Below are positions 17,492 to 33,709 of a stretch of DNA of 64,000 nucleotides, in pieces. Position 1 is the stretch's first letter. Each line of letters opens with the position of its first letter. Below the pieces are notes generated by a model, which was not told the origin of the DNA, did no database searches, and was given only the letters and a program-made list of their open reading frames with translations. Source of the DNA: Cerasicoccus sp. TK19100. Lineage in GTDB: Bacteria; Verrucomicrobiota; Verrucomicrobiia; Opitutales; Cerasicoccaceae. Position numbers and translations under genes: made by a program. The DNA is taken from positions 558,001-622,000 of the forward strand of contig NZ_JAPWDU010000001.1 of assembly GCF_027257155.1 (NCBI RefSeq), read 5' to 3'.

Positions 17492-19081
17492 ATGAACAAT
17501 TACGCAGAAGAAATACAAAACGGCCAGGCTGTGCTTGGCATTGAGCTGGGCTCTACACGGATTAAAGCGGTGTTGGTTGGCACTGATAATCAGCCAATCG
17601 CATCGGGCGGATACAGCTGGGAAAATCAACTGATCGACGGCGTCTGGACCTACTCTTTGGATGAAGTTTGGGCGGGCGTCCAGGCCAGCTATTCAGCGTT
17701 GAAGAAAAACGTGTTGGCCGAGCATGGCGTAGAGCTTTCCACTATCAAAGCCATCGGCTTTAGCGCGATGATGCACGGCTATCTGGTCTTTGGCGCGGAT
17801 AACGAGCAACTGGTCCCGTTTCGCACTTGGCGCAATAACATTACCGGGCCTGCCTCGGAGAAATTAGGTGAGCTTTTTGATTACCCAATACCTCAGCGGT
17901 GGAGCATTGCGCATCTCTATCAGGCTATTCTCAATGGTGAGTCGCACGTTGGCGAAATCACTTACATGACGACGCTTGCCGGCTATGTGCATTGGAAGCT
18001 AACCGGGCAAAAAGCGATGGGCATTGGCGAGGCATCAGGCATGTTCCCCATCGACATTGGTTCGCAGGATTTCAACGCAGGGATGATCGCGCAGTTCGAT
18101 GAGTTGGTGCAAGAGAAGGGCTATGGCTGGAGCCTGAAAGAACTGTTGCCACAAGTGCTATCCGCGGGCGAATCGGCAGGTGCGCTGACGGAAGAAGGTG
18201 CCAAGCTGTTGGACCCTTCTGGCTCGCTCAAACCGGGGATTCCGTTCTGCCCGCCAGAAGGCGATGCGGGCACGGGCATGGTGGCGACCAACAGCGTCGA
18301 AGTGCGCACGGGTAATGTCTCGGCGGGCACCTCCGTTTTCGCAATGCTGGTTCTAGAAAAAGAGCTGACCAAAGCGCACCATGAAATTGATTTAGTCACG
18401 ACGCCCGATGGCAAGCTCGTGGGCATGGCGCACACGAATAATTGCTCCTCGGATATCGATGCATGGATCGGCTTGCTCGGAGATGCGGCCAAGACCATGG
18501 GGGCTGATTTTAGCACGGACGAACTCTACGCCCGGCTTTTCAATCTCGCGCTGACGGGGGATGCGGACTGCGGCGGCCTCCTTGCCTACGGTTATGTTTC
18601 CGGTGAGCACGTGACGGGTTTTACCGAGGGGCGACCGCTCTTCGTGAGGTCACCGGATAACCGCTTAACGTTGCCGAATTTTATCCGCACGCATTTGTTC
18701 ACCGCGCTTTGTGCGCTGCGCACCGGCCTCAATGTTCTCTTCGTCGATGAGGGCGTGGAAGTCGACGAGATCCGTGGTCATGGCGGATTTTTCAAAACAC
18801 CGGTTGTCGGTCAGCGTATCATGGCGGCGGCGACGGGCGCACCGGTTTCCACGCTGGACACCGCAGGCGAGGGTGGTGCCTGGGGCATCGCACTTTTGGC
18901 CGCATACATGATGCGCGCAGATCAGGCCATGACGCTGCCCGAATTTTTAAAACCTGTTTTCGCCGACAGCATGGGAGCAGCGGTTGAACCCGACCCGGAG
19001 GATGTCGCGGGCTTCCTTCGCTTTTTTGAACGCTACCACCGCGGCCTCTCAATCGAGCGCGCGGCAGTAGACGCGATTTAA
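17492..19081 (+). CDS. araB: FGGY-family carbohydrate kinase, probable L-ribulokinase
   Basis: 529 residues, shorter than the classical E. coli AraB (566). The ATP-binding motif [15 protein letters not shown] begins at about residue 16. [11 protein letters not shown] and the C-terminal [13 protein letters not shown] segment fit the two-lobed FGGY fold. The sequence type, with an SGGYSWENQ-like N-terminus, resembles the alternative ribulokinases found in arabinose operons outside the enterobacteria. It would phosphorylate L-ribulose to L-ribulose 5-phosphate. The gene is followed after 29 bases by araA and then araD, so the substrate call rests mainly on context. No sugar transporter is present in the operon. 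Confidence 0.8.
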
Positions 19082-19110
19082 TGGTTAAACCTTAGCAATG
19101 ATTTAATACA

Positions 19111-20604
19111 ATGAGCACGAAACAAGTTTGGTTTGTCACCGGTAGTCAGCACCTTTACGGCCCGGAAACGTTGAAGCAAGTGGCGGCGAACGCCGAAGAG
19201 ATCGCCAAGGCGCTCAACGCCGATGCATCGATACCGGTCGAGATCGTCTTCAAGCCGATTGTCACCACTCCGTCGGAGATTCGGTCGACCCTCGCCGCGG
19301 CTAGCAGTGAGGCGAGCTGCATCGGTGTTATCACATGGATGCACACATTCTCGCCGGCGAAAATGTGGATCAGCGGCCTGAATGCGCTGACCAAGCCGAT
19401 CTGCCATCTGCACACGCAGTTCAACCGCGACATCCCTTGGGATATCATCGACATGGACTTCATGAACCTGAACCAGTCGGCGCATGGTGGGCGTGAATAC
19501 GGTCATATGCTGACCCGCATGCGCATTCCGCGTAAGGTGATCGTGGGCCACTGGGAAGCATCTTCGGTCCGCAATCAATTGGCAAAGTGGGCGGGCGTTG
19601 CGCTTGGTTGGGATGAAATGCGCAACCTGAAAATCGTCCGCTTTGGCGATAACATGCGCTATGTTTCGGTGACTTGTGGGGACAAGGTCGAGGCCGAGCG
19701 GGTGTTCGGTTTTGAAGTGAATACGCATGCCGTGGGCGACTTGGTTGCGGTGATCAATGAAGGTGCGGATGCGGAAATCGACAATGTATGCCAAGAGTAT
19801 GCCGACCTGTATGATTTGGCTCCAGAGCTGGCTAAGGGTGGGGCGCGCCACGACTCTTTGCGTGAAGCCGCGCGCATTGAGATTGGCCTGCGCCGATTCC
19901 TGGTCGACGGCGGCTATGGCGCATTTTCCGATACCTTTGAAGATCTCCACGGCATGGTGCAGTTGCCGGGCTTGCCGGTGCAGCGTCTTATGTCCGACGG
20001 ATACGGGTTTGCCGGTGAAGGAGACTGGAAGCACGCCATGCTGGTGCGCGTGCTCAAGGCGATGACTCCGGGCATGAGCGGCGGCACCTCCTTTATGGAG
20101 GACTATACTTACCACTTCGATCCGGCTGGCGCGCGCTGCCTGGGTTCGCACATGTTGGAGATTTGCCCGTCCATTTCGGCGACCAAGCCACGTGTCGAAA
20201 TTCATCCTCTGGGCATCGGGGGGAAGGCTGACCCGGTTCGCCTGGTTTTCAATGGCTCCACGGGTTCGGCGATCAATGTTTCGCTGGTCGATCTCGGCAA
20301 CCGTTTCCGCTTCCTCGTGAATGAGGTGGAAAGCGTCGAGATACCCCATGAAATGCCGAAGCTGCCAGTGGCCCGCGTCCTCTGGGATGCCAAGCCGAAC
20401 CTGGCAACGGCGGCCGAAGCCTGGATTCAGGCGGGCGGGGCTCACCACACGGCGTTCAGCTTTGACGTGACTGCGGACCAGATCGAAATGCTCGCCGAGA
20501 TCAGCGGCGTCGAGTGCGTTTTCATCGATGAGGCGACCGAGATGCGCCGATTCAAGCAGGACCTGCGCACGGGCGAAGTTTATTACGGCATCCGGGGGAT
20601 CTAA
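19111..20604 (+). CDS. araA: L-arabinose isomerase
   Basis: 497 residues, against about 500 for known AraA. The start WFVTGSQHLYGPETL is diagnostic. The metal and active-site region GGTSFMEDYTYHF followed by LGSHMLEICPSI is intact (the two Glu residues and first His expected for Mn-dependent isomerisation), and a C-terminal HHTAFS gives the second His. It converts L-arabinose to L-ribulose in the cytoplasm. It is the second gene of an araB-araA-araD order, with three bases between its stop and the next start. Confidence 0.97.
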   Translation: MSTKQVWFVTGSQHLYGPETLKQVAANAEEIAKALNADASIPVEIVFKPIVTTPSEIRSTLAAASSEASCIGVITWMHTFSPAKMWISGLNALTKPICHLHTQFNRDIPWDIIDMDFMNLNQSAHGGREYGHMLTRMRIPRKVIVGHWEASSVRNQLAKWAGVALGWDEMRNLKIVRFGDNMRYVSVTCGDKVEAERVFGFEVNTHAVGDLVAVINEGADAEIDNVCQEYADLYDLAPELAKGGARHDSLREAARIEIGLRRFLVDGGYGAFSDTFEDLHGMVQLPGLPVQRLMSDGYGFAGEGDWKHAMLVRVLKAMTPGMSGGTSFMEDYTYHFDPAGARCLGSHMLEICPSISATKPRVEIHPLGIGGKADPVRLVFNGSTGSAINVSLVDLGNRFRFLVNEVESVEIPHEMPKLPVARVLWDAKPNLATAAEAWIQAGGAHHTAFSFDVTADQIEMLAEISGVECVFIDEATEMRRFKQDLRTGEVYYGIRGI

Positions 20605-20607
20605 GCG

Positions 20608-21303
20608 ATGAATTACCAATCCATTCGCGAAGAGTGCTGCGAGGCGAACCTCGCGTTGCCCAAGACCGGCCTGGTCGATTTGACCTTCGGCAATGTCAGT
20701 GTGCTCGATGCTGACGCCGGTGTCTTTGCCATAAAGCCAAGCGGGGTGGACTATGCCGCCCTCCGCCCGGAGGATATGGTGGTCGTGGATCTGGATGGCC
20801 AAGTCGTTGAAGGGAAGCTGCGATACTCATCGGACACGCCGACCCATCGCTGCCTGTTCCTTGCTTTTGCGGCAGCAGGAGTGCGCTCGGTGGTGCATAC
20901 TCATTCGCGTTGCGCCGTGGCCTTTGCACAGGCCGGTCGTGAAATCCCCTGTCTGGGGACGACGCACGCCGATCATTTTTACGGCCCGGTTCCGGTAACG
21001 CGAAAGATGACCGCCGAAGAAATAAACGGCCAATACGAATGGGAAACTGGCCAAGTGATCGTCGAGCGCTTTCAGGGCATCAATCCCATGGATGTGCCGG
21101 CGGTTCTGGTTAACGACCACGGACCTTTTGTGTGGAATGTCTCCGGAGCCAAGGCGGTCGAGTATGCATTCGCCCTGGAAGTGGCGGCGGATATGGCGCT
21201 GAAAACGCTATCCATTTCGCCTGATCAGCCCCCGGTCGACCCGGTGCTGCTCGATAAACATTTCCTGCGCAAGCACGGCAAAAACGCGTATTACGGGCAG
21301 TAG
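20608..21303 (+). CDS. araD: L-ribulose-5-phosphate 4-epimerase
   Basis: 231 residues, identical to the E. coli protein in length. It is a class II aldolase fold with the zinc ligands in VVHTHSRCAVAFAQ and the third His in VNDHGPFVWN. SGVDYAALRPEDMVVVDLDG is the usual phosphate-site region. It makes D-xylulose 5-phosphate for the pentose phosphate pathway. It closes the arabinose operon; a tRNA gene on the other strand follows 43 bases later. Confidence 0.96.
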   Translation: MNYQSIREECCEANLALPKTGLVDLTFGNVSVLDADAGVFAIKPSGVDYAALRPEDMVVVDLDGQVVEGKLRYSSDTPTHRCLFLAFAAAGVRSVVHTHSRCAVAFAQAGREIPCLGTTHADHFYGPVPVTRKMTAEEINGQYEWETGQVIVERFQGINPMDVPAVLVNDHGPFVWNVSGAKAVEYAFALEVAADMALKTLSISPDQPPVDPVLLDKHFLRKHGKNAYYGQ

Positions 21304-21345: not shown

Positions 21346-21421
21346 TGGAGCCGGGTATCGGACTTGAACCGACGACCTGCTCATTACGAATGAGCCGCTC
21401 TACCAACTGAGCTAACCCGGC
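21346..21421 (-). tRNA. tRNA-Thr (anticodon CGT)
   Basis: The minus strand folds as a full cloverleaf. The acceptor stem is GCCGGGT/ACCCGGC, the D-arm is GCTCAGTTGGTAGAGC, the anticodon stem GCTCA/TGAGC holds loop TTCGTAA, and the T-arm contains GGTTCAAGTCC. The anticodon CGT reads ACG (Thr). The 3' CCA is encoded. The discriminator base is T. Confidence 0.95.
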
Positions 21422-23327: not shown

Positions 23328-24647
23328 TCAAAACTGCCGCTTGAGCTTTCGCCGGTCGACTTTTCCGCGAGCATTCACTGGCAGTTGCGGAACGCATTTT
23401 ACCTTAAACCGGCTACGCCATGGCTGAAACTTATCGGCAAGGTGGCTGCGTAATTCAGCTTCGTTAATTTTGCCTTCGTAGGCGATCAGTAGTTTGTCCG
23501 TGATCTCGTCGTGAAGTGCTGCCGCGGATTTTACGTCTCCGGCCTGGAGGGCAATGTTCTCGATCGAAGACAGATCAATGCGCCGGCCAGCACATTTGAC
23601 GATACGATCCGAGCGGCCACGGATGACGATGCTGCCATCGTTTCGGATAGTAACTTTGTCCTGCAAAGTAATCTTCGCGTGTCCGCGGGGATTGGTCGTC
23701 CGCCGGTAGGAACTAACCGCCGCAGATGTCACCGTGAGCCGTCCATGTGAATCCGTGGAGAGGGTTACATTGTCCATGGCCTGCCCGATGCTCTCACCCT
23801 GCTGGCCCAATTCTCCAGAGCGGTCATAAGCGATGCCGCCGCATTCGCTGGCTCCGTAAAAATTATGAATAAGCAGGCCTGTATGCTGATTGAACTCATT
23901 GGCGAGCTCGGCGGGCAGGGGTGCTGCCGCCGATATGCAGAGCCGTAACTTGCCAAGGCGAATGCCTTCCGTGCGCGCGATCGACTCAAAGACTCGCGGT
24001 ACACTGGGAAATACGGTGGCTCCGTGTTGTGCAATTTCATCGGCGATCACACGGGGCAGGGCGGCGCTGCCAATGGCCATGGGGATGCCCGCCGCGAGTA
24101 GCGGCACGACTAAATTCCCCAGGGCATAGCTGTGGGCAAATGGTAGCAGGGCGAAGTTCACATCGTCTGACCGTAGTCCCATGGTCGAAATGATGTTGTC
24201 GGCATCCGCGCAGAGTTCGGCCTCGGTGAAGGCAAATGCTTTGGGGTTACCGCTGGTGCCGGAGGTTAGCTTGAGTAGCGCGATGCCGTCCTTCCAGCCG
24301 CGTGCATTTTGGTCGAGGATTTCGAGGCTTTTACTTTGCATCGCAAAGCAACGGGTGGCCGTCGCTTGCTGGCGGCAAAATGCAGTATCTGCCACGCCGT
24401 CTATTGGAGCTACCACGGCACCTGCCCACCGAAGCGCGAGAAACGTGGCCAGCCACTCAACGCTGTTTGGCAGGTGTAGGGCGACTGCTTTTCGCTTCAG
24501 ATTTTGCAGGCGAAATAGTTCCAGCTTTGTCATCGCCAACTCATGCAGTTGAGCGCGAGTCCAATGCTGGCCGTCCTCAATGACAGCTAGTGCACCGGCA
24601 TCCTGTTTGAGGAGCTTCGCCCAACGATCGGTCAGCGGAGTCTTCAC
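23328..24647 (-). CDS. AMP-forming acyl/aryl ligase (ApeH-like)
   Basis: 439 residues, somewhat short for an adenylating enzyme. The ATP-binding signature LLKLTSGTSGNPKAFAF is present at about residue 125, then NFYGASECGG, and a C-terminal lid with GRSDRIVKCAGRRID and VNARGKVDRRKL (catalytic Lys region). It would activate a carboxylic starter or fatty acid and load it on a carrier protein. It is the last gene of the operon and overlaps the preceding dehydratase by 4 bases. Two copies of a CTTTGC-N3-GCAAAG-type palindrome lie inside it, one encoding CFAMQSK near residue 100. Confidence 0.85.
   Translation of the reverse strand: MKTPLTDRWAKLLKQDAGALAVIEDGQHWTRAQLHELAMTKLELFRLQNLKRKAVALHLPNSVEWLATFLALRWAGAVVAPIDGVADTAFCRQQATATRCFAMQSKSLEILDQNARGWKDGIALLKLTSGTSGNPKAFAFTEAELCADADNIISTMGLRSDDVNFALLPFAHSYALGNLVVPLLAAGIPMAIGSAALPRVIADEIAQHGATVFPSVPRVFESIARTEGIRLGKLRLCISAAAPLPAELANEFNQHTGLLIHNFYGASECGGIAYDRSGELGQQGESIGQAMDNVTLSTDSHGRLTVTSAAVSSYRRTTNPRGHAKITLQDKVTIRNDGSIVIRGRSDRIVKCAGRRIDLSSIENIALQAGDVKSAAALHDEITDKLLIAYEGKINEAELRSHLADKFQPWRSRFKVKCVPQLPVNARGKVDRRKLKRQF
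23654..23668. repeat. CTTTGC-N3-GCAAAG palindrome, copy 1 (one mismatch)
   Basis: CTTTGTCCTGCAAAG, inside the AMP ligase gene. Confidence 0.4.
24334..24348. repeat. CTTTGC-N3-GCAAAG palindrome, copy 2
   Basis: CTTTGCATCGCAAAG with perfect 6-base arms, inside the AMP ligase gene (protein segment FAMQS). Confidence 0.6.
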
Positions 24648-25060
24648 TTTGCCAGAATGGTTAGCTGACCCTCCACGAGTAGCATTTTACCGGAGGATAG
24701 CTGGGCATTAAAGATAAATGCACCGACTTCGCTGTCGGCTACCAGATCCGCAGAAATGAAAATTTCTCCATCCTCTGGTAAGGTGGCTTGGCGGAGGTCC
24801 CACTGTGAAACTTTGATCAAGCGACCTTCACGATAGCCTCGCTCAGCGTAGTATTTCCCAATGATTGCGGCGCATGCCTGAGAGGCGATTTCCAGGGACC
24901 AAGCCGAGTCGATTGTTTCCCCCGATTTGATGTAAGGATGGTTCAATAGACATGTGCTGCAGCGAACGGACCCGGCCGAAATATCGTGAATTCGGTCGAG
25001 CAAAATCATGGGCGACTCGTGCGGAATCAGGTCGCGAATCTCGGTTGCTTCATTTGTCAC
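24644..25060 (-). CDS. ApeP-like 3-hydroxyacyl-ACP dehydratase (hotdog fold)
   Basis: 138 residues. RDLIPHESPMILLDRI matches the start of FabA/FabZ-related ApeP-like dehydratases, in which this His is catalytic. WSLEIASQACAAIIGKYY is the central hotdog helix. It would remove water from 3-hydroxyacyl chains during polyene or fatty-chain elongation. It is one of two dehydratase-like genes in the operon, 10 bases after the MMPL exporter gene. Confidence 0.85.
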   Translation of the reverse strand: MTNEATEIRDLIPHESPMILLDRIHDISAGSVRCSTCLLNHPYIKSGETIDSAWSLEIASQACAAIIGKYYAERGYREGRLIKVSQWDLRQATLPEDGEIFISADLVADSEVGAFIFNAQLSSGKMLLVEGQLTILAK

Positions 25061-25070
25061 TGGAGTGGAT

Positions 25071-27344
25071 TCAGTTCGTTTGTCGGGATGAGGGCAAGCA
25101 TAGTAGTTCGGAGATCAGCCAAGCCATGGCTACGGTTAGGACCACTACTTGCCCCAGTTGTGCCACGGCGGGAATGGAGCACAAGGAGAGCACTAAAAAC
25201 GCACTGAAGGTCGTCGCTGCGGAAATGCGAATCGAAGACGGGGGCTCCTCGGCTGAGGCGGCAAACGCGCCATAGTCCAGGGCCAGGCAAAAGGCCAAGA
25301 CGCCACCAATCAAGGCGAGTAGGCCAATCGCCCCGCTGGCAAGCACGGTGAGCGCCAGGCCGATAACGACGGACCAGAAGGGGACAAGCATTGCGCGCAT
25401 GGCGTGCTTGCGGAAAAAGACTACGACACAGAGTGTAATCGCGATCAGGCCGAATGCGGCACTGTTCAGTATGCCTTCGCGCGCATGCTGGAGCACTTCG
25501 TTGAGCTTGTTTCGCTGAGACAACTCTCTCGTGAAGGCAGTGAGTGAGTCGGGGATGCTGTTATCGGCGGGAGCGTTGATGACCGCTACCCAATGATCGC
25601 CGTCGTGCATGAGCAGGGCTTGTGCGGGCCCATGCAGGGCGTCAGCAATGTTGCGATAGGCCGCGTGTATCTTTTGAGGCGAGTCCCATTCCGCGGCGTA
25701 GGAAAGCCGGGAGAAAAATGGCTGAAAGGCATTTGCCTCAAATCCTGCTTGCTCCAGCTCTTGCTTTAACTCTTCGCCGAAGTGTTTGCTTTGCGATGCA
25801 AAGTTCTGCTGGAGAGCATCATCACCTCCTGAGTAGTTGACGCTTTCAGGAAATTGCTTGGACACCTGTTGAATGCGATTTCTAAGCTGGGCTGGTGAAT
25901 TGCCAAAAACATACCACTGCGTGCTGTCGCCGTCTGGGCGGATGTTTTCGGTCAATGTGCTGAAGCGGTCGATGGCTTCAGAAACAGGCATTTGAAAGTC
26001 TGTAATGTCGTCCGAAAAAACGTGCGTAGAAGCCAGATAGCCCATCGCACTGATCCATAGGACGAGCGCGAAGGGTGCCCATGCCTGCCAGCGTAGCGCA
26101 GGCAAGGGCCGCTTGATCAGGCGCGAAATCTCGTAGTTGCCCGCGATGGGCTCAAGCCACGGGAGGAGGAACTTTACTGACAGGAGTGCGGCGAGCATGC
26201 CTGCGGGCACCATGACCGCAACTTGCTTCATGGCGACCATTGGGGATAGCCATAAAAACAGAAACCCGTAGCAGGTGGAGAGGCAACTGGCCGTGAGTGG
26301 CAGGCGGACTTTTTTCCACGCCGTTTGAAGGTTTCCGTTTTTTCGATTTGCTGCCAAATGGACGGCATAGTCGACCGCTAGCCCAAGGACCACGGAGGCC
26401 ACGGCAATCGCTATGACGTGGATGTGCCCGAAGATCACCAGACCAGCTACCATACACCACAGGACGGCGACACATGCTGGCACTGCGGTGAGAAGTATGA
26501 AGCCCGGGTGCCGGGTAAGCGCAAGAATCAGCGCAAGCATCACGACGACCATACCGATGTTGAGCAGGCTCACTTCGCTCTTGGTCTTGGCTGCACTCTC
26601 ACGCGCAATGTCGTAAACACCGCTGGCTAGCTGCTCATAGCCCGGGTAGCTGGCGCGCATCTTTGCCTCGATGGCTCGCAGTGAATCTTCAATCTCCTGC
26701 TGGCCTTCCGAGGTGAGCGGGTCGACATTGATGGGCAGCCAGAGCATTAGCTCGTCAGCAGAAAGCTCGGGCTGGGCGGGTAACGACTCCAGCGCGTGGG
26801 GGACGAGCAACAGCGGGTCTTCAGGAATTTGATCCGCGTAGCCCATACTCGCTGGGTTATCTAGAAACGTATTTAGGCGACTGGCTGAATCTTTCGCTAG
26901 CCATGCAATGAATTCCTGACTGGGCTCATCTGCCTGACGGTATTCGCGATGCCGGTCGCTGAGCCATCCACTAAACAACAAAGCCTCACGGTGCTCTTGA
27001 ACCACCCCGGCCAGTGCTTCAAACTGATTAGGTTGGTTGAGCAGGATGGCTTCGCTAAAAGCGGTTTGCTGCTGCGCGGTTTCTCGCAAATCCGCAGTTG
27101 CTTGCTTTAAATCTGCACCTTCTACCATGGCGCGAAGCATGACCGGATACGACAGGCGCTCATTCAAAAGTTTGCGAACGGCCTGATCCTCCGGTGCCTC
27201 GCTCTCTTCGGGTAAGAGTTCCAGAATATTGTCATTAAAGGCCTGCGACCAATCAACGAAAGGCAGATATGCCAACGGCGCGACGATCAGCAATAGAATT
27301 GCGATCCAGGGCGTCGATACCTTTCGTTGGGCAGGCGCACTCAT
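25071..27344 (-). CDS. MMPL/RND-family exporter
   Basis: 757 residues with the duplicated RND layout. One helix near the N-terminus is followed by a large periplasmic loop, a bundle of helices (about 265-410), another helix with a second loop, and a final bundle (about 620-755). VVLGLAVDYAVHLAANRK is the conserved helix-4 motif. In aryl polyene clusters the equivalent gene is thought to move the lipid product toward the outer membrane. Its start overlaps the stop of the LolA-like gene by one base. A CTTTGC-type palindrome at 25789-25803 encodes FASQSK. Confidence 0.9.
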   Translation of the reverse strand: MSAPAQRKVSTPWIAILLLIVAPLAYLPFVDWSQAFNDNILELLPEESEAPEDQAVRKLLNERLSYPVMLRAMVEGADLKQATADLRETAQQQTAFSEAILLNQPNQFEALAGVVQEHREALLFSGWLSDRHREYRQADEPSQEFIAWLAKDSASRLNTFLDNPASMGYADQIPEDPLLLVPHALESLPAQPELSADELMLWLPINVDPLTSEGQQEIEDSLRAIEAKMRASYPGYEQLASGVYDIARESAAKTKSEVSLLNIGMVVVMLALILALTRHPGFILLTAVPACVAVLWCMVAGLVIFGHIHVIAIAVASVVLGLAVDYAVHLAANRKNGNLQTAWKKVRLPLTASCLSTCYGFLFLWLSPMVAMKQVAVMVPAGMLAALLSVKFLLPWLEPIAGNYEISRLIKRPLPALRWQAWAPFALVLWISAMGYLASTHVFSDDITDFQMPVSEAIDRFSTLTENIRPDGDSTQWYVFGNSPAQLRNRIQQVSKQFPESVNYSGGDDALQQNFASQSKHFGEELKQELEQAGFEANAFQPFFSRLSYAAEWDSPQKIHAAYRNIADALHGPAQALLMHDGDHWVAVINAPADNSIPDSLTAFTRELSQRNKLNEVLQHAREGILNSAAFGLIAITLCVVVFFRKHAMRAMLVPFWSVVIGLALTVLASGAIGLLALIGGVLAFCLALDYGAFAASAEEPPSSIRISAATTFSAFLVLSLCSIPAVAQLGQVVVLTVAMAWLISELLCLPSSRQTN
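25789..25803. repeat. CTTTGC-N3-GCAAAG palindrome, copy 3
   Basis: CTTTGCGATGCAAAG with perfect arms, inside the MMPL gene. Confidence 0.6.
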
Positions 27345-27973
27345 TAGTTGGCAAACGGCGTGGCCGCGTCATCGCCACTGGTCCAAACGACTTCTCCGAA
27401 TTCGTAATTGCGCGTTGCCTGATTGCGCTGATGAACGCGCACTGACTGCACACTTTGCGATGCAAAGTAAACTTCGATGAAGTCTATGCTCGCCGCTATT
27501 GAATCATTCTTCGGCGAGAGCTTTAGGCCGTCCGCAGTCGGTTCAATATTCCAGTTTGCCTTTAGCTGTTGCACGTCGCCGCGAAGCAGGTCGCTGATCG
27601 CGTGCCCATCGAAGCGGTCACTGGGGATCGTTTGCAGCGCCCCGCTGCCGTCATCTAATTGAATACTGTCGCCGCGTATGAGTAGCCTCATGCTGCGGGG
27701 CGAATCGTAAACAATGGCGAGGTCACCCTCAGGCGAGCGATACATTTTGCCGGTATAGCGTTTGGGGAATCGGCGAAATGGAAAAGTCCGCTCTTCGTTG
27801 AATGCGAGCATGGCGGTCTCGGGGCGTTCGGGCCATGCCAGACGCTGTAGCATGTCTTCCACCGGCTCTGCGCGCAGGCAAGGGCTACCCAGACCAAACA
27901 GCATCGCTATCAGGAATATTACTTTGCCGATGTTCGTCGAAAGCGGCGCTTTAACTGGGCAATGTGAAAACAT
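27344..27973 (-). CDS. LolA-like outer-membrane lipoprotein carrier
   Basis: 209 residues from the ATG at 27973, chosen because it gives a clean signal peptide (KVIFLIAMLFGLGSPCLRA); an upstream ATG at 28012 would put 13 extra residues before it. The body shows the LolA pattern of beta-strands: FNEERTFPFRRFPKRYTGKM, GDLAIVYDSP, and a C-terminal VHQRNQATRNYEFGEV. It would carry a lipid or lipoprotein across the periplasm and works with the adjacent MMPL exporter. A CTTTGC-type palindrome encodes YFASQSV near the C-terminus. Confidence 0.8.
   Translation of the reverse strand: MFSHCPVKAPLSTNIGKVIFLIAMLFGLGSPCLRAEPVEDMLQRLAWPERPETAMLAFNEERTFPFRRFPKRYTGKMYRSPEGDLAIVYDSPRSMRLLIRGDSIQLDDGSGALQTIPSDRFDGHAISDLLRGDVQQLKANWNIEPTADGLKLSPKNDSIAASIDFIEVYFASQSVQSVRVHQRNQATRNYEFGEVVWTSGDDAATPFAN
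27453..27467. repeat. CTTTGC-N3-GCAAAG palindrome, copy 4
   Basis: CTTTGCGATGCAAAG with perfect arms, inside the LolA-like gene; identical to copy 3. Confidence 0.6.
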
Positions 27974-28692
27974 TTGAGGAGGAATTCTGGCAACAAACGG
28001 ACATGCAGGCAAACCATTGTAAGGTTGTCACGCAGATAGTGAAAATGGCTGATGCCGCCTTCGTCTTTGGGCACATAGCGGACCGCTGCTTTGAGCTTAA
28101 TTGGCCGGACACCTGCCCAGAACAGGCGCACGGCCGCAGCGGGATCGAAGTCATAGCGTCGGCCCATGGTGGTTTGTTTGAAGGCATCGAGCAGCGGCCT
28201 TACGGGATAGACGCGAAAGCCGTATAGTGGGTCCGCAATGCCACCCCAAAGAGTCTCAACTTGCGTTAGCGCAATACTCAGTTGGCGACCAGCGAGGCGG
28301 ATCATCGGTGCGTCCGGGCCAAAGTCGGGCTGCCCCATGATGGTTGCGTCCGGGGCCTCGACGGATGCCGCCATAAATTCAGCGACTTGGTGGGTGGGGT
28401 GCTGCCCGTCGGCATCCATGAGCAGCATGTGGGTGTAGCCGGCATTCATGGCTTCCCGAGCGGCCAGAAGCGCCGTCGCGCCCTTACCGGCGTTCTCTTT
28501 TTGGACGAAGACGCGCAGGCCCGGCCACTGTTCAGGGTTCTTAAGAAACTCCTCGTGGGCCCCGTCCGTGGAGCCGTCGATAAAGAGCCATACCGGGTTC
28601 CAAACGGCGAGTGCTTCGGTGATCGTGCGTCGAAGAATCGGCCCGGTGTTGTAGGACGGGATGACGACGACATGCGTGCTGGACTCAGTCAT
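27919..28692 (-). CDS. Family 2 glycosyltransferase
   Basis: 257 residues. GT2 landmarks: VVVIPSYNTGPILRRTI at the N-terminus, LFIDGSTDGA, and the metal-binding LLMDADGQHP at about residue 93. There is no acyltransferase extension, unlike the fused ApeJ of some proteobacteria; separate acyltransferases are encoded next to it. It may add a sugar to the lipid product. It overlaps the upstream hotdog gene by 8 bases. Confidence 0.88.
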   Translation of the reverse strand: MTESSTHVVVIPSYNTGPILRRTITEALAVWNPVWLFIDGSTDGAHEEFLKNPEQWPGLRVFVQKENAGKGATALLAAREAMNAGYTHMLLMDADGQHPTHQVAEFMAASVEAPDATIMGQPDFGPDAPMIRLAGRQLSIALTQVETLWGGIADPLYGFRVYPVRPLLDAFKQTTMGRRYDFDPAAAVRLFWAGVRPIKLKAAVRYVPKDEGGISHFHYLRDNLTMVCLHVRLLPEFLLKCFHIAQLKRRFRRTSAK

Positions 28693-28984
28693 GCCGGACT
28701 AGGGAAATTTGGGCGTAAGGGCCGTCTGCGTCGGACACCTCGCCTTTAAACCCTAACTTGGTTGGTGCGAGGGAGATGTCGACATCGCACCCAGGTTGGA
28801 GCTCACGCAGCAACTTGAGTTGGCGGATTTTCCAGCCACTTGTTTCCGGCGAAATGTCACTGGCAAAGCGGATGAGCCACTGAGCCTGCACGGCGGCCGG
28901 CACAATGGCGTGGCCGGGGAAATGCCCCGCGCAGTGTCCATTGTCGAAGGTTACTTTGAGGCTTTTGCTCGTTGTTTCTGCCAT
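28685..28984 (-). CDS. Small hotdog dehydratase (ApeI/FabZ-like)
   Basis: 99 residues. GHFPGHAIVPAAVQAQWL carries the hotdog catalytic-His context (GHFPxxPxxPG type). It is shorter than FabZ (about 150), as is usual for the ApeI-like dehydratases of polyene clusters. It overlaps the acyltransferase gene by 34 bases and the glycosyltransferase by 8. Confidence 0.8.
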   Translation of the reverse strand: MAETTSKSLKVTFDNGHCAGHFPGHAIVPAAVQAQWLIRFASDISPETSGWKIRQLKLLRELQPGCDVDISLAPTKLGFKGEVSDADGPYAQISLVRHD

Positions 28985-29742
28985 GGGGCGAAGTCGTCGG
29001 TGGAAAGTTCGTGGCGGAAGAATGACTCAACTCGCTGGCAAAAGTGAACTGCTTTTTCACCCTCATTGACCTCGAAAATTTGTCCCGGCGTGAAGACGTA
29101 TTGGAAGGGCGTGGCGTAGCGGCGAAGGAGGCCGCCACCCTTGGCAAGCAGACCGCACGAATTGCGGATGACAATGGTGCGAACCCGGACGTCGGCCCGG
29201 CGGGCGACGAGGGCAAAGCCTGCTTTGAACTCGTTCAGTGGCGGGATTTCCGTGCGCGTGCCTTCCGGGAACACCAGGATCGTCTTGCCGAGGGCCAAGG
29301 CATTGCTCATGGCGTGAAGGAGGTCCAGCCCCTCGTCATTGGCGATAAAATCGTTCTCGCGAATCACGCCGCAAAAGAATGGGCTGCGTCGCAGGCTGGA
29401 TTTAAAGATGCACACGACATCCGGCAGTTCGGTTAGGAGAAAGAGTGCATCGAGCAGCCCGGTATGATTGGCCACGATGATCGACGGGCCCTTGGGGATG
29501 GCCTCGCGGACGCCTTGAAAACGGACGCGACCAACGCCGCCTGCTTCGATCGCGGCGATGAACGTCTTGAGTAGCCAGACCATGATTCGCCGCGAGAATT
29601 GCTGGCGTCGTTCGCTGGCGGGCAGCCATTGGGTGAGCAGGCAGAGGGCGTTGTAGGCCAGTGCTCCGCTGCCAAAGAAGAGCACCAGGCCCAGATAAAT
29701 AATGTAGCGCCCGAGGGGAGCCTCTGTCCGGTTAGCGGCCAT
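28951..29742 (-). CDS. 1-acyl-glycerol-3-phosphate acyltransferase family protein (PlsC-like)
   Basis: 263 residues. One N-terminal membrane helix (about 13-37) precedes the catalytic block: NHTGLLDALFL (NHxxxxD) at about 91 and VFPEGTRTE (FPEGTR) at about 160. It would transfer an acyl chain onto a glycerol-type or glycan acceptor at the inner membrane. It lies inside the polyene-like operon, so it may build a dedicated lipid anchor rather than bulk phospholipid. Confidence 0.88.
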   Translation of the reverse strand: MAANRTEAPLGRYIIYLGLVLFFGSGALAYNALCLLTQWLPASERRQQFSRRIMVWLLKTFIAAIEAGGVGRVRFQGVREAIPKGPSIIVANHTGLLDALFLLTELPDVVCIFKSSLRRSPFFCGVIRENDFIANDEGLDLLHAMSNALALGKTILVFPEGTRTEIPPLNEFKAGFALVARRADVRVRTIVIRNSCGLLAKGGGLLRRYATPFQYVFTPGQIFEVNEGEKAVHFCQRVESFFRHELSTDDFAPWQKQRAKASK

Positions 29743-30646
29743 CAGGAGAAGGATCTTGGGCCTGGGCCGGGTTTAACGGAAGAAAATTAAACCACTGATA
29801 GGGATGCGCCTTGAGCAGGGATTCCAGCCAATTCAGGACACCCTGAAAATGCTCATGCGCGGCGGTCTGGGCTGCTTGGCGATTTCCGCTCGGGCGAAAC
29901 GCTTCGCTGGCGTAAACATCGAAGCGATCCCGGGAATCACCGTGGGGCAGGGCGATGCAAAATTGCACCGGCCGCTGGTAAATCGCTGCGAGCCGATAAA
30001 TGGTTACCGGAAAAAGCCGTGGCTTGCCGAGGAATTGAAACGCCTCCAGCTTGGAGGCGTGCTCGACCCGGTCGCACTGCATGGCGATGGATTTACCCGC
30101 ACCGAGGGCGTCCTTGAGCGCAAAGACAATCTCCGACTCGTCGTTGACCCAGATGATCTCGATCATTTCGCCAGCCTGAGCGAGAAGGCGCTCGATGTCT
30201 TCAGAGTTTTCGACGCGTTGGCGAATCATGGTGACGCGTCGCCCGGTCTGCTTGATGTGAAAGCCCATCAGGTCCGACGCACCCACGTGAAAGGTGCCCA
30301 GCATGATTGGCTCATCGGCATACAGCAGATGCCCGCGCTCGCGATTGGCGTCATCACGCCAGTCGATTTTAATCGTGCCCGGTTGGTTGGCGCGGAGCTT
30401 GGCCAACAGGCTATGGGTAAACTCCGCAAAGTGGCGCATGCCTTCGCGCTTCGTTGCGGGGCGTTGCCGGAGGGCGGTTAAATACTCGTGAGAGGCCGCG
30501 CGCTGCCCAGGCATCGAGCTGTAGGCAACCGCTCCGCCGATGCTGACGACGGCATCCCGCAGTGGTCCGGGCAGATGCTTGTCCCACCAGTGGATGGCCC
30601 GATAGCCCCAGCTGGGGCCGGGGTTTCTGGGCGGAGCTACAGCCAT
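29732..30646 (-). CDS. LpxL/HtrB-like acyltransferase
   Basis: 304 residues from ATG at 30646, which overlaps the previous stop region; a longer reading from 30685 adds 13 residues without motif support. GTFHVGASDLMGFHI holds an H-x4-D-like acyltransferase motif (here HVGASD), and the protein has the overall length of lipid A-type late acyltransferases. Similar genes occur in aryl polyene clusters, where they acylate the head group. It ends 11 bases inside the PlsC-like gene. Confidence 0.75.
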   Translation of the reverse strand: MAVAPPRNPGPSWGYRAIHWWDKHLPGPLRDAVVSIGGAVAYSSMPGQRAASHEYLTALRQRPATKREGMRHFAEFTHSLLAKLRANQPGTIKIDWRDDANRERGHLLYADEPIMLGTFHVGASDLMGFHIKQTGRRVTMIRQRVENSEDIERLLAQAGEMIEIIWVNDESEIVFALKDALGAGKSIAMQCDRVEHASKLEAFQFLGKPRLFPVTIYRLAAIYQRPVQFCIALPHGDSRDRFDVYASEAFRPSGNRQAAQTAAHEHFQGVLNWLESLLKAHPYQWFNFLPLNPAQAQDPSPDGR

Positions 30647-31290
30647 GTTAACCGGATGACGCCGCGTTCGGGCAAGTGTGCGCAAAGGTCTTGTCGCTGG
30701 GCCAGACGTTTCGCTGCATCCTGGTGTGTGTGGCTGGCCGCCTGGCTATCGCCGGGCTGCAGGGATACTTCGCCGAGTGCATTCACGGGGTCGCGACTGA
30801 GGCGCAGGTAAAAGCCAAAGGTGGCCCCGGAGCCCAAGCCGTGCTGAGCTGCCCACTGAGTGTATTCTTCGCCTGCCGCCAAGTGGACCACCTCGGCGCG
30901 AGAGATGAGGGCCGCCAGCAAGGACTCAGCCAGTAAATTTTCAGCACCAATGATCGGGGTTAACTGAGCCGCAGATTGCCCGCGCACGACGTTGATCAGG
31001 TCCAAGGGGCCAGGCTGGATTGAGTTTTGGAAATGCAGCGGACTGGGCGTGGGAAAGCTCTCCAGATACTTTTCCAAGCTGATGGAGCCGCCATACTCCG
31101 AAGCGAAAATCCACTCATCGTTGGGCTGTGGGGCAGCATTCTTGGTCAGCTCGCCGAGGATCAGGGGCAGAGCAGTAAGCCGCCGTGCCGCCAGTGGTTT
31201 AAAATTTTTGCGCAGGTCTTTGCGCACCTCATCGGACAGTTCCTGAACGGGCGCAAAGGCAGATACTTGCTGAATGTAGCGCTTATTCAT
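30637..31290 (-). CDS. Beta-ketoacyl-synthase-like protein without active-site Cys (chain-length-factor type)
   Basis: 217 residues from the ATG at 31290, which overlaps the ketosynthase stop (8 bases). A longer open frame to 31620 is only a shadow of the ketosynthase. The sequence resembles the short Ketoacyl-synt_2 family: FAPVQELSDE, LPLILGELTKN, IFASEYGGSISLEKYLESF, PGPLDLINVVRGQSA. I see no catalytic Cys in a thiolase-like context. In aryl polyene systems such a partner pairs with the active ketosynthase and sets chain length. Confidence 0.75.
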   Translation of the reverse strand: MNKRYIQQVSAFAPVQELSDEVRKDLRKNFKPLAARRLTALPLILGELTKNAAPQPNDEWIFASEYGGSISLEKYLESFPTPSPLHFQNSIQPGPLDLINVVRGQSAAQLTPIIGAENLLAESLLAALISRAEVVHLAAGEEYTQWAAQHGLGSGATFGFYLRLSRDPVNALGEVSLQPGDSQAASHTHQDAAKRLAQRQDLCAHLPERGVIRLTWL

Positions 31291-32380
31291 GGGTGATGAG
31301 GTGGCCGGCATGCGCGCCGCCAAATGCACTGCTGAGCAGAACCGCGGCTTGGTAGTTTTTCGTCGAAAAGGCTTCTGCCTGAACGTTAGCCGAGCAATAG
31401 GGGGCCGACGAACCGACGTTGCCCGGGGCCCGGCCTTGGCGCATGGATTCCAGGGCAATGGCGAGCTCCACCAGGCCACATGAGCCAAGGGTGTGGCCGA
31501 GCGATCCCTTCCAGGAGACCAAGGGGGCCTTGGGAAATGCTTTGGCGGTTGCTGCGGCTTCGAGTCGCGCGGCCTCAAGGGTTCCGGTTCCGTGCCCCTT
31601 GACCCAAGCGGGTGCGCCATCCAGAACGGCGGCCAGCGGAGCGACTACGGCGTTGAACCCGGAGCCGCTTGGGTCATTGCCCGTCATGTGGTGAAACTCG
31701 GAATACGATGATGACGCGGCAATACGAAATGGCGACGGCTGGCGACTGAGTAAGGCGAAACCCGTCCCGTCACCAAGGCCAATTGAACCGGTTTCACGCG
31801 CGGCGTAGGGTTGCGGGAAGTCGTTGTTAAGAATCTTCAGCGAGTGGAATCCGCCCACTACGAAATGGCTGAGGTAATCGAACGAAAACACCAGTGCTTC
31901 GTCAGCCAGGTCGTTTTCCAAGAGGCGTTGCGCGTGGATCAGCCCAAGTTGAGCCGAGACACAAGCATTGGAAATGATGGTCCGGTTACCGCCCCAGTTC
32001 AGGCGAGTGGCAAATGCCTGCACCGCGCTGACTGCGGTGGCTTGCTCCCGGTAGTGCGCATGGCCCTGCTGATGGAATGCGAGCATCTGATCGATGCCGA
32101 AATTACTGCTGGTGATAACGATCGGATGGCGCGCGTCGCCCCATGCTCTTTGCGGGACGCTGGCAAGCAGCTCGAGGCATGGCTCCAGCCAGCGGGGCGG
32201 ATCGCAGTCGGCGAGATTTCCAGTCAGCGCCAGCGGCACCGCGTCATCGGAACCGGGCAGGGGAGGCATCGCGCGCAGGGCAATTTTCCCATCGACCAAG
32301 CCTTGCCAGGACTCATGGGCGTTACCCAGCGCCGTGCGGCAATCGCACGCATGTAGGTAAACGTCGGTCTGTGGGGTCAT
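31283..32380 (-). CDS. Beta-ketoacyl-ACP synthase
   Basis: 365 residues, a little short for a KAS I/II protein. The catalytic set looks complete: Cys in ISNACVSAQLGL (about 156), His in WVKGHGTGT (about 270), and Lys/His in WKGSLGHTLGSCG (about 300). It would condense malonyl-ACP with a growing chain. It is the only apparently active ketosynthase in the cluster; many aryl polyene clusters have more than one. Confidence 0.9.
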   Translation of the reverse strand: MTPQTDVYLHACDCRTALGNAHESWQGLVDGKIALRAMPPLPGSDDAVPLALTGNLADCDPPRWLEPCLELLASVPQRAWGDARHPIVITSSNFGIDQMLAFHQQGHAHYREQATAVSAVQAFATRLNWGGNRTIISNACVSAQLGLIHAQRLLENDLADEALVFSFDYLSHFVVGGFHSLKILNNDFPQPYAARETGSIGLGDGTGFALLSRQPSPFRIAASSSYSEFHHMTGNDPSGSGFNAVVAPLAAVLDGAPAWVKGHGTGTLEAARLEAAATAKAFPKAPLVSWKGSLGHTLGSCGLVELAIALESMRQGRAPGNVGSSAPYCSANVQAEAFSTKNYQAAVLLSSAFGGAHAGHLITHE

Positions 32381-32395
32381 AGAAATCGTTAGCGA

Positions 32396-32665
32396 TCAGC
32401 TTTGGCGGGACTGAATGAACGCAGCCAAACTGTTGATACTGGCAAGCGCTTCGCGGGCTTCCTCACTGTTTTTAATTTTGATGCCGAATTCCTTCTCCAC
32501 GCGGACAACGAGCTCCAGCGCATCGATGGAGTCCAGCCCAAGGCCGTTGTCCATCAGGGGCTCGTCGTTGTCGAGTTCTTGGGGTTCGACGTCATCCAGT
32601 TGCAGGGCGTCGACAATCAGGGTTTTTAATCGGTCAGTCAGGTCGCTCATTCGTTCTGCGGTCAA
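32396..32665 (-). CDS. Acyl carrier protein
   Basis: 89 residues (84 from a better ATG at 32650, MSDLTDRL). GLGLDSIDALELVVRVE holds the DSx phosphopantetheine-attachment Ser. Acidic overall, as expected. It is placed between the ketosynthase and the VTT protein and overlaps the latter by 4 bases. Confidence 0.92.
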   Translation of the reverse strand: MTAERMSDLTDRLKTLIVDALQLDDVEPQELDNDEPLMDNGLGLDSIDALELVVRVEKEFGIKIKNSEEAREALASINSLAAFIQSRQS

Positions 32666-33336
32666 GTTGTTGAGGCTTCGGATTGAGTCAAGTCCGCATG
32701 CCGCCGTTTAAAGGTCACGCGAATGCCGAGCATCGTCACCAGCACGACAAATCCACCCCAAAGTGCGAGCTGTCCATCCTGCGTAATGGCACCATTGGCG
32801 GTCAGCGCGACGCCCAGCAAAAAGCAACCCTGTATGGTCCAGGACAAGGCCAGGTAAGCGGCAAACGGCACGGCGAGCACGCCAAGGATATAATTTTGCA
32901 TCCAGAAGGGGATGCCGGGGATTGCGCGCACGAGGATGGTCAGGCGCAGTGCGTTGCCCTCGTTGAGGGAAAAAACCTGCGGCCAGCGTCGGGAAATCTT
33001 TTCCCGCAAAGGCTCGCGCCAGCAGTAGCGGGCCAGGAGATAGCTGGCGGACATGTTAATCGCCAGGCAAACCAGGCCTACTGGAATGCTCTGCCATGGT
33101 GAAAACGCGACTCCTGCGCAGACGTAAAACACCGAAATCGGAAAGCCGACCATCGGCAGGAAAATCATCAGCAGGGCAAAGATGGCCAGGGCCCAAGGCG
33201 AACCATTGTCCAACAAGGTCCGCCATCCGCCATTGAGCATAATCAGTGACCAGGCGAGGATTGCCATGGTGGCCCAGCCAATCGTCAGCGGTATCCAGCG
33301 CCGACTGCGGTTAGTTGATGGCGCGCTTTTGCTCAA
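32662..33336 (-). CDS. VTT/TVP38-family membrane protein
   Basis: 224 residues with about six hydrophobic helices. The VTT-type motif VRAIPGIPFWMQNYILGVL is at about residue 137. VTT-domain (DedA-related) proteins are linked to lipid movement across the inner membrane. It is an unusual member for an aryl-polyene-like operon and may replace a missing membrane component. It overlaps both neighbouring carrier-protein genes (26 and 4 bases). Confidence 0.85.
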   Translation of the reverse strand: MSKSAPSTNRSRRWIPLTIGWATMAILAWSLIMLNGGWRTLLDNGSPWALAIFALLMIFLPMVGFPISVFYVCAGVAFSPWQSIPVGLVCLAINMSASYLLARYCWREPLREKISRRWPQVFSLNEGNALRLTILVRAIPGIPFWMQNYILGVLAVPFAAYLALSWTIQGCFLLGVALTANGAITQDGQLALWGGFVVLVTMLGIRVTFKRRHADLTQSEASTT

Positions 33337-33709
33337 TGAGATTTGCCAAGTCGTTCAGGTTCTCCAGCTCCACGAGGTCCTGATTATTCATCGTCACGTC
33401 GAACAACTCCTCCACGGCAAAAGCGACTTCGGCCAGCATCATGGAATCCGAGCCGAGATCGGTCCGCAGATTCAGCGTTTCTGCGTGTGCGGCCAACCAC
33501 TCCTTGGAGAGGTCTTCCACGTGATGTTCCAAAAGTCCGAGCGCCAAGGTGCTCAGGCAACTACGGTCACCTGTCGACATGAAGCGCACAAACGCGTTCT
33601 GAAAATCCGGAGAATAATGACGCGCGCGATACCGCCATACCGCTTCCTGGTCGGTAGCGGTATCGGTTGGGGCTGGGTTATTCATCGTGTTGGTAGTATT
33701 CACGTGCAA
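33311..33709 (-). CDS. Acyl carrier protein with N-terminal extension
   Basis: 132 residues (124 from ATG at 33685). The C-terminal 80 residues are a carrier domain: RTDLGSDSMMLAEVAFAVEE with the attachment Ser in SDSMM. An N-terminal stretch of about 45 residues (VWRYRARHYSPDFQNAFVRF) is not part of a normal ACP and may dock a partner. First gene of the thirteen-gene operon; 118 bases separate it from the divergent HAD gene. Confidence 0.85.
   Translation of the reverse strand: MHVNTTNTMNNPAPTDTATDQEAVWRYRARHYSPDFQNAFVRFMSTGDRSCLSTLALGLLEHHVEDLSKEWLAAHAETLNLRTDLGSDSMMLAEVAFAVEELFDVTMNNQDLVELENLNDLANLIEQKRAIN

Follow-up and report, generated by a model that had tools for sequence, protein, structure and literature searches.

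A ketoreductase-less aryl polyene-type operon in Cerasicoccus sp. TK19100 and other Opitutales

Aryl polyenes (APEs) are among the most widespread bacterial pigments, and gene-level accounts of their synthesis come mainly from Proteobacteria and Bacteroidetes. Here we describe a 13-gene operon of the marine bacterium Cerasicoccus sp. TK19100, order Opitutales, found in a 64-kb window (the whole stretch of DNA analysed, G000:C1:558001-622000). Judged by its gene content, the operon very probably directs the synthesis and export of a yellow aryl polyene pigment of xanthomonadin/arcuflavin type that is anchored in the membrane, and our best reading of the system is a variant of that pathway that is split between loci and has no ketoreductase of its own.

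Among the closest described systems are the arcuflavin (arc) genes of Azoarcus sp. BH72, which encode a chorismatase, halogenase, methyltransferase, PS-deacetylase, LolA, exporter and AMP ligase and lie at two unlinked loci, both of which are needed for pigment (PMC3949708). Compared by gene content as published, and not by sequence, the Cerasicoccus genes resemble these and the xanthomonadin clusters of Xanthomonas and Lysobacter in having a chorismatase as the likely aryl source, a halogenase-like flavoprotein, methyltransferase, LolA, exporter, acyltransferase and AMP ligase (PMC3949708), a ketosynthase with an N-terminal-only partner, dehydratases, and genes split over unlinked loci; the PS-deacetylase is found in some Opitutales loci. 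In contrast, the described clusters have their own ketoreductase (arcH encodes a 3-ketoacyl-ACP reductase; PMC3949708), whereas there is none in the Cerasicoccus operon or in its second locus, a gene trio on contig C7. The Cerasicoccus operon also has an added VTT protein, and no dialkylresorcinol genes were recognised.

The ApeA-R clusters of E. coli CFT073, X. doucetiae and A. baumannii share with the operon counterparts of ApeC, D, E, H, I, J, L, M, O and P. Unlike them, it has no counterpart of ApeQ, ApeR, ApeK, ApeN, ApeG, ApeA or ApeB, ApeJ is represented by separate glycosyltransferase (GT2) and LpxL-type genes, and the starter would come from a chorismatase instead of UbiC. The APE class has already been predicted in the Opitutales, because antiSMASH 7 labels an orthologous region of Congregicoccus parvus ASA1 (G535, L205) as arylpolyene (passages in PMC10927696 and PMC12193912). 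Its orthologous ketosynthase, at 5,422,717-5,423,799, is the centre of region 4, 5,402,678-5,443,805, as given in those passages (PMC10927696), where the region appears as a prediction; unlike the Cerasicoccus operon, it has FabB-like ketosynthase, chorismatase and halogenase-like genes in its cluster.

The genes of the operon, in window coordinates, are listed below; bit scores are from comparison with the set of 18 Ape proteins that E. coli CFT073 encodes (L060), with gene names from PMC8253772.

33311-33709, minus strand: ACP1, an acyl carrier protein (ACP) with an N-terminal extension (PF00550, E 3.8e-7; start uncertain, with an ATG at 33685)
32662-33336, minus strand: VTT-domain membrane protein, DedA-like (PF09335, E 1.7e-14; a match in 31/97 loci)
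32396-32650, minus strand: ACP2, ApeE-like acyl carrier protein (PF00550, E 1.5e-11; ApeE 64 bits versus ApeF 27)
31283-32380, minus strand: ApeO-type ketosynthase with the full catalytic set (PDB 7f28_B and 6qsp_A; ApeO 85 bits versus ApeR 32; tree)
30637-31290, minus strand: predicted ApeC-type chain-length factor, no catalytic Cys (profile matches 7f28_A and 6qsp_B; AlphaFold/Foldseek)
29732-30646, minus strand: LpxL-type acyltransferase, equivalent to the acyltransferase part of ApeJ (PF03279, E 1.9e-6; ApeJ 40 bits; HX4D motif HVGASD)
28951-29742, minus strand: PlsC-type acyltransferase, ApeD (PF01553, E 1.5e-15; ApeD 84 bits)
28685-28984, minus strand: ApeI-like hotdog dehydratase subunit with the His (Pfam ApeI-like, E 0.039, below cut-off; ApeI 17 bits; profile top match 6qsr_A; invariant GHF)
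27919-28692, minus strand: GT2 glycosyltransferase, equivalent to the glycosyltransferase part of ApeJ (PF00535, E 2.3e-12; ApeJ 139 bits)
27344-27973, minus strand: LolA-like periplasmic carrier, ApeL (by position and weak relatedness, with orthologues at 16-29 bits against E. coli ApeL; the Pfam scan of the window protein gave no match)
25071-27344, minus strand: MMPL/RND exporter, ApeM (PF03176, E 3.1e-7; ApeM 82 bits)
24644-25060, minus strand: ApeP-like hotdog dehydratase subunit with the Glu (Pfam ApeP-like, E 0.0084, below cut-off; ApeP 14 bits; profile top match 6qsr_B; invariant E57/Q61)
23328-24647, minus strand: AMP-forming acyl-ACP ligase, ApeH role (PF00501, E 6.5e-38; ApeH 14.5 bits)

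All 13 genes lie on the minus strand, between 33709 and 23328, and adjacent genes overlap at nine of the 12 junctions. At the other three (VTT/ACP2, ACP2/ketosynthase and MMPL/dehydratase) there are gaps of 10-15 nt, so the "thirteen overlapping genes" of the preliminary description of this window were nearly exact. The families it named for the ACPs, the ketosynthase, both acyltransferases, the GT2, the MMPL protein, the AMP ligase and the inserted VTT protein were confirmed by Pfam searches and comparisons, whose matches were weaker for the hotdog and LolA-like proteins. A divergent HAD-family gene upstream and a convergent trypsin/PDZ protease gene downstream delimit the operon. The arrangement is not due to chance, because three other Cerasicoccus genomes have it intact and it can be recognised in 14 more genomes of the Opitutales; the operon is thus a real, intact and conserved unit.

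Of the 13 operon proteins, nine pair with an Ape protein of E. coli CFT073: the ketosynthase with ApeO, the GT2 and LpxL-type proteins with ApeJ, the PlsC-type acyltransferase with ApeD, the MMPL protein with ApeM, ACP2 with ApeE, the AMP ligase with ApeH, and the two hotdog proteins with ApeI and ApeP, families that are also their sole, sub-cut-off Pfam matches. The carrier and ligase complement of an aryl polyene system is present in the form of the ApeE-like ACP2, a second ACP and the PF00501 ligase, as are the anchor and export genes (ApeD, J, L and M), although the LolA assignment is weak. In 18 loci the GT2 and LolA-like parts share one open frame, a possible recurrent fusion (L100, L101, L104, L107, L118, L119, L121, L126, L135, L138, L142, L152, L155, L157 and L161 among them).

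The ketosynthase orthologues keep Cys140, HGTGT, Lys291 and GHTLGSCG in 18 cases of 18, with C140, H263, K291 and H296 invariant, and the PDB chains closest to the window protein, 7f28_B and 6qsp_A, are ApeO from A. baumannii and X. doucetiae (PMC8358021; 6qsp title). The N-terminal domain family PF00109 is a marginal match, passing narrowly when the protein is searched alone and missed in the genome scan because the sequence is divergent. The 217-residue partner has no nucleophile Cys; its profile matches 7f28_A (E 1.1e-4) and 6qsp_B (E 2.4e-3), and the three best Foldseek matches of its AlphaFold model (pLDDT 87) are ApeC chains, with moderate TM-scores of about 0.5-0.6. By profile and predicted fold it is an ApeC-type chain-length factor, in agreement with the earlier account of one active ketosynthase and a Cys-less partner. 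Direct support for a heterodimer of the two comes from their natural fusion into one 618-residue open frame (L042:8770-10626 of G006, and L145:9920-11776). For the hotdog proteins, the first profile matches are 6qsr_A (ApeI-like) and 6qsr_B (ApeP-like), with some bias toward these since each profile has the E. coli protein as one row. The His (GHF) is invariant in one subunit and the Glu in the other, a division that would fit the composite active site of an ApeI-ApeP heterodimer.

In a maximum-likelihood tree, which is unrooted and has long branches, E. coli FabF, FabB and ApeR, the FabF of this genome and the FabB-like R ketosynthases (KS_R) form one group with 99/99 support. Outside it fall the window ketosynthase with its orthologues, E. 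coli ApeO, and two further types of ketosynthase from polyene clusters, so the placement with primary FabF/FabB that would have counted against a polyene assignment was not seen. The same tree bears on whether the operon is an ordinary, FabF-type duplicate of fatty acid synthesis, as the resemblance of its parts to the type II system might suggest. With the ketosynthase outside the FabF/FabB group, a chain-length factor present and the primary fabG-acp-fabF set located elsewhere (L055), we consider such a duplicate hardly credible.

The preliminary description listed a tyrosine/histidine ammonia lyase among the missing genes and proposed that the product may be a new polyene or acyl glycolipid. 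A profile search with PF00221 found no such lyase anywhere in the genome; the view that this is unusual, or points to a new, non-aryl product, was not supported. The absence is not odd, because the E. coli APE cluster likewise has none (PMC8253772), and the Cerasicoccus genome has a chorismatase, halogenase-like and methyltransferase locus that tracks the operon:

C7:94477-95412 of G000: chorismatase of the FkbO/Hyg5/XanB2 family, between genes for a UbiE-like methyltransferase and a halogenase-like flavoprotein

This chorismatase matches TIGR04444 at 161.6 bits, below the cut-off of 325, and has PDB matches in the Hyg5/FkbO family. Relative to FkbO it has Cys for Ala in the DICR motif and Gly for Ala in ISGT; Cys and Gly at such positions mark the Hyg5 type, which forms 3-hydroxybenzoate (3-HBA; PMC7170507). 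By these residues the protein resembles the Hyg5 type, but it is not safely separable by sequence from the XanB2 type. An in-frame TAG initially placed inside the gene was rejected as such, being the normal stop codon ahead of the next in-frame gene. The nearest NCBIfam model to the flavoprotein is the halogenase CmlS, at 201 bits and far below cut-off, and GxGxxG and WxWxIP, flavin halogenase-family motifs (PMC5945002), are both present.

The chorismatase that recurs beside the operon in relatives (PF21168; PDB 4bps, FkbO, and 5a3k/5ag3) is no more than about 10 kb away from the cluster in 27 of the 36 loci whose flanks are wide. Among 234 Opitutales genomes, 45 have the operon and a chorismatase, two the operon alone (G129 and G543), four a chorismatase alone (G007, G399, G453 and G458) and 183 neither; a chorismatase thus occurs in 45/47 operon-bearing genomes versus 4/187 others, raw counts from a by-eye comparison of two genome lists in which shared ancestry is ignored. 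In the same-family genomes G004 and G006, the methyltransferase-chorismatase-flavoprotein trio of C7 stands in the same order directly ahead of the operon, which argues that the Cerasicoccus pathway is split over two loci. This co-occurrence, near-perfect, and the clustering in relatives speak against a non-aryl polyene or modified acyl glycolipid built on a fatty acyl starter. Such a product would be in keeping with the weak ApeH likeness of the AMP ligase (14.5 bits), the two acyltransferases and GT2 in the operon, and the absence of an aromatic-precursor gene inside the operon itself; on balance we judge it improbable. For the Opitutae, the earlier proposal of an APE-type operon that has no ketoreductase of its own stands, and the idea that the missing lyase points to a new non-aryl product finds no support.

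Arcuflavin is a hybrid ester with a dialkylresorcinol (PMC3949708), and a flexirubin- or arcuflavin-like ester of this kind was also considered. Three ketosynthase III-type genes were found in the genome: a strong FabH-like gene and, as read by eye, an OleA-like gene beside an OleB-like gene, as in olefin synthesis (L207, C10:9455), and a type III polyketide synthase-like gene at C2:395733 (L208). The last of these might favour such an ester; however, no DarB was recognised among the three by these by-eye identities (DarA was not searched for) and none of them lies near the operon, leaving this product quite unlikely.

No ApeQ-like ketoreductase is present in the operon, as had been stated earlier, or at the C7 trio, and just 4 of 80 related clusters have an ApeQ-like match nearby. 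The absence of a ketoreductase from the cluster is genuine and order-wide. The best match in the genome to E. coli ApeQ is the FabG of the fabG-acp-fabF set (match at C2:349595), at 183 bits versus 80 for the next:

C2:349589-350386 of G000: primary, housekeeping FabG, part of the fabG-acp-fabF set (L055)

This genome and G003 have no close FabG paralogue, since each encodes just one further short-chain dehydrogenase/reductase (SDR) within E 1e-30 of FabG. The most likely ketoreductase candidate by sequence is the housekeeping FabG, which the preliminary description had suggested might be borrowed from primary metabolism. A dedicated but unlinked SDR serving the same polyene machinery is a serious contender, to which we give rather less than even weight. 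Five other SDRs of the genome match ApeQ at E <= 1e-10, and almost all of the E. coli ape genes, apeR perhaps excepted, seemed required even though FabG is present (PMC8253772). Set against these points are the wide lead of primary FabG as the ApeQ match, the lack of a close FabG paralogue, and the fact that no SDR was found to recur beside the clusters.

The operon likewise has no counterpart of the second ketosynthase, ApeR. The earlier claim that a second active ketosynthase is missing is correct for the operon and not for the genome, which encodes other ketosynthases. A FabB-like KS_R is found in 42/80 related loci, in many of which it comes directly after ACP1, but the clusters in the family of Cerasicoccus sp. 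TK19100 lack it. APE lipid is still produced by apeR mutants of E. coli (PMC8253772), and ApeO-ApeC alone gives full-length polyene in vitro, with ApeR increasing throughput (PMC8358021). At C2:281k of G000 (L056:6697-9024) there is a set of an ACP, a FabA-domain dehydratase and a FabB-like ketosynthase, the latter at C2:281770. We rejected this set as a displaced ApeR and treat it as a housekeeping paralogue, because it is widespread in the order (34/54 genomes), whether or not the operon is present.

A search of other Opitutae, as had been suggested, recovered the operon in another 17 of the 54 genomes sampled, with orthologues at 45-74% identity and gene order almost always kept. Scanning named genomes yielded 80 loci; almost all carry titles of Opitutae, Opitutales or Verrucomicrobiota bins, with two titled just "bacterium" and one Pedosphaera. 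In a phylum-wide sample the operon was found in 21/388 genomes, all 21 in the Opitutales, and in the order sample in 47/234. A different APE-type cluster, which has large open frames for ketosynthases as well as ApeQ-like and ApeK-like genes, occurs in another family of the order (L053, G044 C1:138000-157999; L054, G025 C2:212000-231999), and no chorismatase was detected in those genomes. The same-family genome G007, which has a chorismatase and no window-type operon, carries another ketosynthase/AMP ligase/MMPL/FAD/ACP cluster (L052, C57:62000-81999). Elsewhere in the window, at 17492-21303 on the plus strand, sugar-kinase-like, arabinose-isomerase-like and class II aldolase-domain genes stand in tandem like araB-araA-araD (the aldolase domain alone was profile-tested), followed by a tRNA-Thr at 21346-21421.

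The gene families, their conservation, the catalytic residues, the co-occurrence with a chorismatase and the lack of a clustered ketoreductase are computational results. Taken together, these data suggest a pathway in which we infer by homology every enzymatic step, as well as the product, its halogenation and lipid anchor, the VTT role and the use of FabG. The C7 chorismatase would convert chorismate to 3-hydroxybenzoate, and possibly 4-hydroxybenzoate too, which the AMP ligase would load onto the ApeE-like ACP. The ApeO-ApeC pair would extend this starter with malonyl units, a ketoreductase from outside the operon, most likely housekeeping FabG, would reduce each ketone, and the ApeI-ApeP hotdog pair would dehydrate the products to a conjugated polyene. 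The halogenase-family flavoprotein and UbiE-like methyltransferase may tailor the ring. The PlsC-type and LpxL-type acyltransferases and GT2 would link the polyene to a lipid or glycolipid. Transfer to the outer membrane would fall to the MMPL pump and the LolA-like carrier, and perhaps also to the VTT protein, a putative helper in lipid flipping, and the polyene would serve there as an antioxidant pigment. In its fullest form, in which FabG performs all reductions for an Opitutales APE synthase without a dedicated ketoreductase and halogenase-family tailoring of the chorismatase-derived ring yields a halogenated xanthomonadin-like lipid, this proposal is a tentative one.

Several points weigh against the aryl polyene assignment and its details. 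The product, pigment and enzyme activities of the operon are predictions from its genes, the matches of the AMP ligase, both hotdog subunits and LolA are weak, and the genome tally carries the limits given above. In G129 and G543 (L203 and L204), which belong to one genus, the operon is present and a chorismatase was not detected. The chorismatase product is not fixable from sequence, as the XanB2 type makes both 3- and 4-HBA (PMC3949708). Furthermore, FabG may not suffice, given the apparent requirement for the E. coli ape genes in its presence and the lack of a clustered ketoreductase.

Judged by the titles, abstracts and passages of the literature searched, the chorismatase link, the split over loci and the consistent ketoreductase absence appear to be new, and titles and abstracts on Cerasicoccus pigments held nothing on point. 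The operon and its relatives represent an order-wide version of the APE system in the Verrucomicrobiota, with an aryl source that genome sequences allow to be named. Because the clusters so consistently lack a ketoreductase, the way in which polyene synthesis is tied to fatty acid synthesis becomes testable, and the pigments of Cerasicoccus, if polyene, may have passed for carotenoids.

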